Positions 33,562 to 63,844 of a stretch of 64,000 nucleotides of DNA are shown here, piece after piece (the first letter of the stretch is position 1; every line of letters begins with the position of its first letter). This DNA is from Hyunsoonleella jejuensis. GTDB lineage: Bacteria; Bacteroidota; Bacteroidia; Flavobacteriales; Flavobacteriaceae. The notes under the pieces are model-generated. The model had not been told where the DNA came from. It did not search any database and saw nothing but the letters and a program-made list of their open reading frames with translations. The DNA is taken from contig NZ_FOFN01000002.1 in NCBI RefSeq assembly GCF_900111025.1, positions 186,001 through 250,000 of the forward strand, given 5' to 3'. Made by a program: the position numbers and the translations under genes.

Positions 33562-33638
33562 GCGTTAGGGATTGAACGGTCTGTTTGAGCTCCTCGCAGA
33601 GAGCGAGTAGTGAAAGCCCGACCCTTGTGGTAACGCCC
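33562..33638. repeat. Modular repeat, copy A (77 bp)
   Basis: It begins GCGTTAGGGATTGAA, has a CTCGC / GCGAG hairpin core, then GAAAGCCCGACCC and ends GGTAACGCCC, so the ends GCGTTA and TAACGC are inverted. It lies 30 bp upstream of the mnmD start. It shares both end blocks with copies at 41735-41822 and 63633-63760. Confidence 0.7.
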
Positions 33639-41105: not shown

Positions 41106-41717
41106 TTAATGTTTCTCAAAATCCCTAACACCTGCCTCTACTCTAGTTTTTAAATAGTTTTGTCGTGGCACGATTGGGCAAGAATATTTATCGTTATACG
41201 CACAATACGGGTTGTAGGCGCGATTAAAATCAATGGTTAATGCGTTGCCTTTTGGCATTTTGGTATCTATATAGCGTCCGCCGCCGTAGCTTTCTAGTCC
41301 GTTAGTTTCATCTAAAAATGGCAGAAAAAGGAATGGTTCATAATCTTCCTCTGCCTTATAATCAAGATTTTCAAATACATCCAAGGTAAAGGTCTCTCCT
41401 TTTAACTGGAATGTGACTTCGCCATATTTTATATACATTGGTCTGCGGTCGGTAGTGGTTTTCATTTCAAAAGGTTGCTCTTCTGGCGTTCTTTTAAAAC
41501 GAGCATCGACTACATACGCTGAGTCGAACTTAAAGAAGTCTAAACCTTCAAAATTCTTTCTGTCTTTTTTCTTTAATGGGGATGTGGATGCATCTTTAAA
41601 AAAGGCGTTAAGTTCTTTTTGAAATTCGGTGTCTCCCTGTATGGGTCGTTTTTTTTGCGAGCAACTGCTACAGAATAAAGTCAATCCAAACATTAATAAT
41701 ATTAGGGCTTTGCTCAT
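41106..41717 (-). CDS. DUF1684-like lipoprotein
   Basis: The lipobox FCSSC ends the signal near residue 19. A DUF1684 domain follows: FGLDFFKFD-like start region EGLDFFKFDSAYVVDARF, then YGEVTFQLKGETFTLDVF, EDYEPFLFLPFLDETNG, YGGGRYIDTKMPKGNALTIDFNRAYNPYCAYN and CPIVPRQN, with a possible Cys pair. Function unknown. The frame runs on to 41858, but that extension is the translation of modular repeat copy B, so the ATG at 41717 is taken (203 aa). Confidence 0.85.
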   Translation of the reverse strand: MSKALILLMFGLTLFCSSCSQKKRPIQGDTEFQKELNAFFKDASTSPLKKKDRKNFEGLDFFKFDSAYVVDARFKRTPEEQPFEMKTTTDRRPMYIKYGEVTFQLKGETFTLDVFENLDYKAEEDYEPFLFLPFLDETNGLESYGGGRYIDTKMPKGNALTIDFNRAYNPYCAYNDKYSCPIVPRQNYLKTRVEAGVRDFEKH

Positions 41718-41734
41718 TGCTGGCTGGTATGCCC

Positions 41735-41822
41735 GCGTTAGGGATTGCAGCAAGCTACCGTGTAGCGCGGAAAGCCCGACCCCGCGCTTTGAGAGCCACA
41801 GCGAACGTGCGGGGTAACGCCC
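41735..41822. repeat. Modular repeat, copy B (88 bp)
   Basis: It begins GCGTTAGGGATTGCAGC, has a GCTAC / GTAGC hairpin, then GAAAGCCCGACCCCG, a second long imperfect hairpin and the end GGGGTAACGCCC. It lies 17 bp upstream of the DUF1684 start and creates a false N-terminal extension of that reading frame. Confidence 0.75.
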
Positions 41823-41857
41823 AAATAATTTTACCACTAAAATATTTCCTGTTTCCA

Positions 41858-42385
41858 TTAATTTCCTGGATTAAATGATGGATTTAGGTTTGTATTATAG
41901 TTCTGTAGTAAATCGCTAGAAAATGCATTGAAGGTATCCTCATCAGCAAAGGATTTAATCTTTTCTGGATTAAAATTGCCTTGTAGATAATAGGCAGTGG
42001 TTTCGGATGCTGAACTATTGAAAATAATAACATCTGTAACGACTGCTCCGGCTTCGCGAACTGAAATAATTCTTGTATGGTCTGGATCATTTTTCCTGTA
42101 AACATCTAAATAGCCGCTGTTGGTCACAGCATTCATTTCGGTAATCAAAGTTTGACGTTTTAAAACATTTGTATCCTTAAAGGTGATGTATTTAAAATCA
42201 TAAATATTCCCAATGGCGTGTTTTACTCCTGGTGAAATATTGCTTAAAACGGCTTTCATAAAATTGGGTACTTGAAAAGATGTTGCGCCCAAATCTGACT
42301 TATGATTGTTATAAAAGCCTTGAAAACTACTGCCGCAGGCCGTTAATAAAACACAAAGGCACATTGCTAAAACTGATTGTTTCAT
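41858..42385 (-). CDS. Small lipoprotein, possibly DUF4252-like
   Basis: The lipobox LTAC ends the signal near residue 16. The remainder (175 aa in total) is an alpha/beta domain: ATSFQVPNFMKAVLSNI, YLDVYRKNDPDHTRIISVREAGAVVTDVIIFNSS and YLQGNFNPEKIKSFADE. The last two blocks resemble DUF4252 proteins but the match is from memory and weak. The ATG at 42385 sits at the signal peptide; the frame is open to 42490. Confidence 0.6.
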   Translation of the reverse strand: MKQSVLAMCLCVLLTACGSSFQGFYNNHKSDLGATSFQVPNFMKAVLSNISPGVKHAIGNIYDFKYITFKDTNVLKRQTLITEMNAVTNSGYLDVYRKNDPDHTRIISVREAGAVVTDVIIFNSSASETTAYYLQGNFNPEKIKSFADEDTFNAFSSDLLQNYNTNLNPSFNPGN

Positions 42386-57958: not shown

Positions 57959-58172
57959 GTTTAATTTTTGTTCTGAACAAAATTATGAGTTTAGCCGCAA
58001 AATGCGACATTCTAAAAAGAGAAAAATTAACTTATATGATGTGAATTAGAAGTTAGATTCACATAATTATCCGCAAAATCCAATAAATTAATTTGGTTGC
58101 CTTAACGGTGGCCAAAAAGCCTAGAGACTTTTTTACCCCTAGTTATATCTCACTTAAATTGAATTAAAGCAA

Positions 58173-63632: not shown

Positions 63633-63760
63633 GGGGTTACCCTTTCGGGTCGGGCTTTACGCTATATCTTTTAGTATTGGTGGCTTCGAGAACACTTCGA
63701 TAAACTAAGTAACCACCTCAGCCACCAACACTAAAAGGATGCCGCTGCAATCCCTAACCC
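63633..63760. repeat. Modular repeat, copy C (128 bp)
   Basis: On the minus strand it begins GGGTTAGGGATTGCAGC, contains a long imperfect hairpin (outer arms AGTGTTGGTGGCT / AGCCACCAATACT), then AAAGCCCGACCCG and ends GGGTAACCCC. The hairpin loop holds a CTTCGAGAACACTTCGA segment that resembles a REP palindrome. It lies between two divergent methyltransferase genes. Confidence 0.75.
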
Positions 63761-63844
63761 ACTTATTTGCTATGGTCATTCATTTGCCGCAAAATTACAC
63801 TATTTTTGCAATCTTATCGGACATAATTTCATTGAGCGAAAACT

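Follow-up and report, generated by a model that had tools for sequence, protein, structure and literature searches.

Several described systems resemble the element that we analyze here. The sites for primosome assembly (ssi sites), which are of the phiX174 and plasmid types, are structured sites on single-stranded DNA (ssDNA) phages and conjugative plasmids, as our element is. Integron attC sites, also considered here, have the motif RYYYAAC at their 5' end and GTTRRRY at their 3' end. REP elements are short, palindromic, intergenic, and multi-copy, as are the copies of our element. Passages of one report on the GTAG and CGTC families of REP sequences and their RAYTs (REP-associated tyrosine transposases) describe the CGTC repeats as lacking a dedicated transposase and as occurring in Bacteroidetes and Spirochaetes (PMC3733652). 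On plasmid F, Frpo is a single-strand promoter, according to excerpts from two papers (PMC9849209, PMC11541004), and one of these describes Frpo2 and Frpo1 regions that lie upstream of ssb and ygeA (PMC9849209). Finally, the Flavo-1 RNA motif (Rfam RF01705) was introduced by Weinberg et al. in 2010, in the part of that paper used here (PMC2864571). The portions of the literature on Flavo-1 or RF01705 that our searches returned contain no link to plasmids, phages, or ssDNA.

The window (the whole stretch of 64,000 nucleotides from Hyunsoonleella jejuensis that was analyzed) contains three copies of a GTTAGGG-type relative of Flavo-1 (Table 1). The earlier note had reported three copies with shared end blocks and inverted ends, and we confirmed the coordinates, the inverted ends, and the blocks (GCGTTAGGGATTG, AAAGCCCGACC, and GGTAACGCCC). 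More precisely, the three copies have GCGTTAGGGATTG.A (with GGGTTAGGG instead in copy 3), AAAGCCCGACC, and GG.AAC.CCC in common, the position following GGGATTG is a variable base, and the two hairpin arms are what differs. A three-block descriptor, built from 102 copies outside the window, matched the window exactly three times and the reversed window not at all. Across loci that total 1.65 Mb, and that in many cases had been picked because they carry the element, the descriptor gave 212 matches at scores of 30 or above, and reversed sequences gave none (top score 29.5). As to the borders of element 1, many blastn alignments to other copies start at 33562, or within a few bases of it, and end at 33638, and other alignments end short of P3. 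All three copies lie 11-30 bp before a gene start, as had been proposed (30, 17, and 11 bp), if the second gene starts at ATG 41717. (The open reading frame at 41106-41858 on the minus strand overlaps element 2; judged by eye, ATG 41717, with a signal peptide, is the likelier start.)

Table 1. Positions of the three elements in the window and of their parts.
Feature	Position	Strand	Basis
Element 1, GTTAGGG-type Flavo-1 relative	33562..33638	+	Descriptor and blastn borders
Element 1, 5' block	33562-33576	+	
Element 1, arm P2	33577-33612	+	
Element 1, block AAAGCCCGACCC	33613-33624	+	
Element 1, short arm P3, then end TAACGCCC	up to 33638	+	
Element 2, GTTAGGG type, long P3 arm	41735..41822	+	Descriptor
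Element 2, block AAAGCCCGACCC	41771-41782	+	
Element 3, GTTAGGG type, P1 variant GGGTTA/TAACCC	63633..63760	-	Descriptor and Rfam Flavo-1 match

The three copies form a subfamily of Flavo-1, and one of the three passes the Rfam cut-off (a gathering threshold of 42 bits). This is copy 3, whose cmscan match covers 63644-63775 at 51 bits; copies 1 and 2 had no Flavo-1 match at E up to 5. A copy from an inovirus (L302) and one from Leptospirales (L164) also reach the cut-off. The hallmark of Flavo-1, a hairpin with an inner helix, internal loops, and the core AGCGG..AGCGGA, is present in our element: the cores were recognized by eye and the inner stem covaries. The two types share the inner stem and the core sequences. 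They differ in that the GTTAGGG type adds an outer stem (P1) and an arm (P3), which was lacking in the canonical Flavo-1 copies that we read, and in that the inner stem is GGG/CCC instead of CCC(C)G/CGGG.

The family is not confined to the window. Its genome has 34 exact copies of the 5' block GTTAGGGATTGNA, where about 0.4 would be expected (calculated by hand from the 34% G+C of the window). The reversed pattern had no matches, but this control is weak because GTTAGGGATTG is a mirror palindrome, and at least one of the 34 blocks (at locus L029) lacks the 3' block by eye. With the Flavo-1 model, the genome has 31 matches at E up to 1, of which 14 are above the cut-off, and 78 of 149 genomes (the source genome and its relatives) have matches. 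In a collection of 84,980 species, the exact two-block pattern occurs at 117 loci at least; the titles among the matches listed include Flavobacteriaceae, Chitinophagaceae, Sphingobacteriales, Treponema, Leptospirales, and one Bacteroides plasmid.

We then examined the fold. On the written strand, the outer stem P1 (GCGTTA/TAACGC) is followed by the inner stem (GGG/CCC, then T-A pairs), the variable arm P2, and the small junction arm P3, which is closed by CC/GG. Among 226 unique elements, one P1 pair is C-G in 204, T-A in 4, G-C in 4, and A-T in 3; one inner pair is T-A in 203 and A-T in 18; and one base pair of P2 is G-C in 140, A-T in 32, and C-G in 22. (Invariant columns carry no weight because many of these elements were picked by fixed letters.) Pairing is preserved in the P1 variants GTGTTA/GAACAC, GGGTTA/TAACCC, GAGTTA/GAACTC, GGCTTA/GAAGCC, and GCGCTA/TAGCGC, and some other variants are unpaired. 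The proposal that structure is kept while arm sequence varies was borne out, for a structured repeat with exact borders that is found across the genome. The cores are not random: by eye, a small number of classes can be told apart, and these are found again in different genera.

The fold is better on the written strand. In comparisons of whole elements, in which the shared blocks weigh every time, the written strand folds better in 179 cases and the complement in 25, of 217, with DNA energies; with RNA energies the counts are 170 and 33. For the P2 arm alone, the written strand is better by 96 to 48 of 218 (DNA) or 127 to 76 (RNA), and for the P3 arm alone by 58 to 8 of 88 (DNA) or 39 to 29 (RNA). 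For the chromosomal copies of the genus and family, the counts are 34 versus 4 of 41 (DNA energies). Individual elements vary. The z-scores for the folds of window copies 1-3 are -2.1, -1.9, and -4.9, versus -2.7, -0.6, and -3.5 for their complements, and the complement of copy 1 folds slightly better than copy 1. In three microvirus copies, the z-scores are -3.9 (L309; complement -1.6), 0.3 (L315), and -0.5 (L387). A caveat, which counts against the ssDNA explanation given below, is that G-U pairs are not commoner in the folds of the written strand (204/2863) than in those of the complement (246/2751), although tolerance of wobble pairs would predict more of them there. GNA triloops, which are stable in DNA, number 87 on the written strand and 40 on the complement, and are about threefold denser than in the flanks.

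The element occurs on ssDNA phages. A pattern search gave 26 viral contigs. From 9 of these, we searched 18 proteins, which identified one microvirus (L309), one inovirus (L302), three tailed-phage-like contigs (L292, L300, and L306), and four contigs without a name. Seven further viral contigs carry the GCGTCAGGG type. Among 21 microvirus loci, the descriptor found the element in 6, on the coding strand and after the capsid gene in each, with differing cores, and found none in 14; a seventh microvirus (L390) has a similar element elsewhere, by eye. (These loci were L309, 11 GenBank records taken non-randomly from the top of a similarity list, and 9 IMG/VR contigs, one of them weakly related; the searches for relatives gave 10 microvirus loci and 1 inovirus locus, counting the query.) In the four microviruses with an annotated next coding sequence, the element lies 30-36 bp before it, and in L386 the last part of a small annotated reading frame extends into the element. 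In microvirus L388, we attributed to chance a score of 21.5 within coding sequence, because 20 rounds of shuffled sets gave 4 matches at 20 or above. In the inovirus, too, the element is on the coding strand. We take the coding strand to be the virion strand in these microviruses. The ssi-type site of phiX174 and G4 also lies after the capsid gene, which matches the position of the microvirus elements. A difference is that we saw no homologous unit by eye in the F-G gap of phiX174, and the element has no clear sequence homology to it.

The element is also found on plasmids. Searching with the 151-bp copy from a B. fragilis plasmid gave matches in 90 plasmid records (E up to 0.01), of which 87 are from Bacteroidales by name, and the unit or part of it is also on plasmids of the gammaproteobacteria Vibrio, Acinetobacter, Shewanella, and Moraxella. 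Five plasmids have two or three exact copies, always on one strand; a sixth (W01, 74 kb, with two identical regions) has one copy per strand. (The reversed-pattern control for this count is void, as the search word is a mirror palindrome.) In 9 of the 12 plasmids that we read, a named gene of an early type (ArdC or zincin-like, JAB, PcfK, or ParB) starts 5' of the element on the other strand and diverges from it. In the other 3, the neighbors are unnamed genes or an insertion sequence. From the arrangement of genes and element on pBF9343 and p5482, with oriT placed according to the mob genes, we infer that the element is on the transferred strand of these plasmids, with the same polarity as in F. 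(An inverted repeat beside the Bacteroides plasmid copies was considered as oriT and dropped because the mob genes are about 6.5-7.5 kb away.) On the Vibrio plasmid, the copies are on the traI side, which is not clearly the leading region.

On F itself, the descriptor scored 38.9 at 58092-58172 on the minus strand; the reversed control gave no match, and the best of 100 shuffles scored 31.2. The match is at the end of a leading-region block of about 555 bp that is 89% identical to a second block. In the second block, the same sequence has a few changes, its inner stem has lost one base, and there is no descriptor score. The element shares with Frpo the leading region, the transferred strand, and these duplicated blocks, which fit the published Frpo2 and Frpo1 regions. 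(The F record that we used to match positions does not name ygeA.) If Frpo is the A+T-rich hairpin of these regions, the two differ in place: the element lies about 240 nt beyond that hairpin on the transferred strand. As a further apparent difference, the family has no excess of sigma70-like promoter pairs in a linear search (67 on the written strand, 78 on the complement, and 56 in shuffled sequences, of 228). A linear search with a consensus for Bacteroidetes-type promoter pairs gave 10, 5, and 1 of 228. AAGCGG, the PriA word, was found in 21, 10, and 8 of 228. Of 5426 complete E. coli genomes, 2245 have the F element, and 4742 of its 4802 places are on plasmids. Among plasmid records, 4382 match it at E up to 0.01, and in 3743 of these the match covers 80% or more of the element. 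Matches on E. coli IncX4 plasmids (E of 1-5) were left out of the counts; their likeness to the element is limited to a portion of one arm. The ssi sites of F have been treated in older papers, and the F copy may be an ssi site that was already described or is known under another name.

Our best explanation, which we hold tentatively and give a chance just short of even, is that the element is a structure that acts as folded ssDNA, as a priming or promoter site, and is also kept in chromosomes. We favor it because fold, strand, and place are kept on ssDNA phages and on the transferred strands proposed above. In the microviruses, the inovirus, pBF9343, p5482, and F, the element is on the strand that is single-stranded in the virion or during transfer (given the oriT positions assigned to the Bacteroides plasmids). 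The selected feature of the family would be the fold, with P1, the inner stem, a variable P2, and a small P3 at the junction, and its active form would be ssDNA at which the host machinery starts synthesis. We consider a role in priming or as a promoter likely. The element might direct primer synthesis for the complementary strand, as at sites of the ssi or primosome-assembly type, or it might be a single-strand promoter like the neighboring Frpo of F. The chromosomal copies would be structurally maintained relatives of the form on mobile DNA. Several observations stand against this explanation: the chromosomal copies have no replication-strand bias (described below), 14 of the 21 microvirus loci lack the element, plasmid W01 has copies on both strands, the copy in the second F block has lost a base of its inner stem, and the three tailed-phage-like carriers have double-stranded DNA and no obvious need for such a site. 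A wider claim is possible and more doubtful: that Flavo-1 belongs to an ancient, cross-phylum signal for starts on ssDNA and is not an RNA family, that conjugative plasmids (F, pBF9343, and p5482), ssDNA phages, and tailed phages carry this signal, and that copies by the dozen persist in Bacteroidota chromosomes and exchange their arms in place. For Flavo-1, an orphan "sRNA" since 2010, the tie to the leading region of F and to ssDNA phages gives a function that is testable in a laboratory organism. The early steps of conjugation could also gain a common element, and the case would be a warning that DNA structures are filed among the "RNA" families. Exchange of arms at shared sites is, moreover, an unusual mode of repeat evolution.

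Alternatively, the element could be a REP- or MITE-like non-autonomous element that is moved in trans by a Y1 transposase (a RAYT or an IS200-type protein) or by another transposase, with its palindromic ends as signals. We consider this unlikely, even though several observations favor it. Many class-i copies are 92-98% identical at unrelated sites and have like borders. Of 128 copies on named contigs, 104 are intergenic, 5 are inside open reading frames (5 of the 109 that could be placed), and 19 are unplaced. Also, RAYTs and Flavo-1 are associated across 149 genomes (34/44/4/67; odds ratio 12.9, uncorrected for kinship and genome size), and this co-occurrence, which is strong, speaks against a structure that works as ssDNA.

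On the other hand, the earlier note's suggestion that a RAYT moves the element was not supported: none of 30 RAYT loci, examined up to 1.5 kb on each side, carries it, and cmscan of 14 of these loci found no Flavo-1 at E up to 0.5. Nor did we find, at these loci or at IS200-type loci, a Y1 gene flanked by the ends of the element, as had been envisaged. For IS200, no locus among the 30 from L069 to L098 has the two blocks together when one mismatch is allowed, and in the 9 of them that were run through cmscan there is no Flavo-1 at E up to 1. Among 32 genomes with at least 10 Flavo-1 matches, 16 lack the RAYT at E of 1e-5, and 11 lack any match to the Pfam Y1 family at E of 0.001. The Y1 matches in the source genome comprise a broken gene in two pieces, a frame of 530 amino acids, and a RAYT of 188 amino acids that is bounded by its own 28-bp inverted repeat, which differs from the ends of the element. 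The claim that the window contains no transposase held for the Y1 kind, which is what the scan covered. The gene family that most often adjoins the element does so at 4 of the 117 loci listed. And unlike REP sequences, the element is three-armed and mostly about 60-150 nt long, has no single tagged stem of 8-9 bp, and is not beside a RAYT.

Comparisons of chromosomal sites bear on movement as well. At site 1, we aligned nine genomes of the genus, and five, including the source genome, have the element. G007 has a degenerate element, G001 has another hairpin without a descriptor score, and G009 and G004 have nothing. The five carriers have different cores and P3 arms, and in G003 and G008 P1 is altered on both sides. 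Site 2 is filled in all three congeners that cover it (G010, G005, and G003), and site 3, which G005 alone covers, is filled there too, each time with different arms; the choice of congeners for these two sites leans towards sharing because all four (with G008) have the site-1 element. Against G005, over about 420-440 kb that is partly collinear, the source genome has 8 elements and G005 has 11. Three sites are shared, one element is in the source genome only, and two are in G005 only (one of them degenerate and one within an 870-bp insertion); the remaining elements are outside the collinear stretches. Thus, some element sites are old, copies are gained or lost, and arms are exchanged in place. 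The elements present in only one of the two genomes are a point in favor of a mobile element. The arms might be replaced by exchange between copies, by insertion of small hairpins, or by template switching. Mapping of empty and filled sites, which the earlier note had proposed, did yield these polymorphic sites, with no clean empty site or target duplication; their spacers are too diverged from G005 to read a junction. The sharing of window sites with congeners argues against a mobile element, as does the lack of a replication-strand bias in five complete genomes (59 of 107 copies are co-directional, with dnaA taken as the origin), which also led us to reject a lagging-strand signal for the chromosomal copies.

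Another alternative is that the element is a transcribed small RNA or a cis-regulatory RNA, as Flavo-1 is filed in Rfam. We regard this as quite improbable. Paired positions do covary, the advantage of the written strand in folding also holds with RNA energies, and the microvirus unit is in the sense of the genes. But both flanking genes are antisense for 47 of the 104 intergenic copies and both are sense for 23, and the plasmid copies are antisense to the nearby early-type genes in 9 of 12 plasmids. GNRA tetraloops (18 on the written strand and 7 on the complement) are barely denser than in the flanks, and a count of loops found no UUCG in the elements of the family. In the part of the Flavobacterium psychrophilum transcriptome study considered here, Flavo-1 matches are sense or antisense to transcribed regions, many are outside them, and the map shows no strand link to transcripts (PMC9723704). 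Present evidence points towards DNA, in contrast to the Rfam entry. Of the proposal that this is a mobile or RNA-level unit, its presence on mobile DNA stands and action at the RNA level is disfavored. The least probable alternative, a site for chromosome maintenance, nucleoid organization, or replication restart that acts as an extruded hairpin in double-stranded DNA and was copied from hosts onto mobile DNA, would account for sites common within the genus, the lack of an orientation bias, and the tailed-phage-like contigs, but not for the single strand used on six microviruses and five of six multi-copy plasmids or for the strand asymmetry of the fold.

A reading of the element as an integron attC site was rejected by eye because the order is reversed, with GTTA first and TAAC last.

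We also made several minor observations. The RAYT of the source genome is in locus L039 (C2:206942-210127), where the frame of 188 amino acids is between 28-bp inverted repeats GCTAGCGCTCGTTTGTAACGAGTGCCGT (positions 1190-1900). These repeats are a separate REP-like family, and similar ones are in L103, L110, L114, and L115. Matches to another Rfam family, Acido-Lenti-1 (RF01687), adjoin IS200-type tnpA genes (L088, 1893-1938 and 1357-1401; L079, 1944-1988; L077, 1965-2010), one of them at the cut-off and the others below it. Because of this proximity, Acido-Lenti-1 may be another "RNA" that is in fact the end of a transposon. Inside P2 and P3 arms, small hairpins of the CTGAGCTTGTCGAAG type were seen by eye (as in L004, L008, and L013), as if other short palindromes insert there. 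A TTAGCRGATA-like motif is about 8-20 bp 5' of some copies (such as those in L017, L137, L145, and L177, by eye) and before some canonical Flavo-1 copies, and it resembles the element's own 3' arm. Finally, canonical Flavo-1 is at seemingly the same place before the start of a sufS-like gene in L031, L047, L049, L055, L060, and L063 (by eye), which looks like long-term conservation of one Flavo-1 site across six genomes from five genera.
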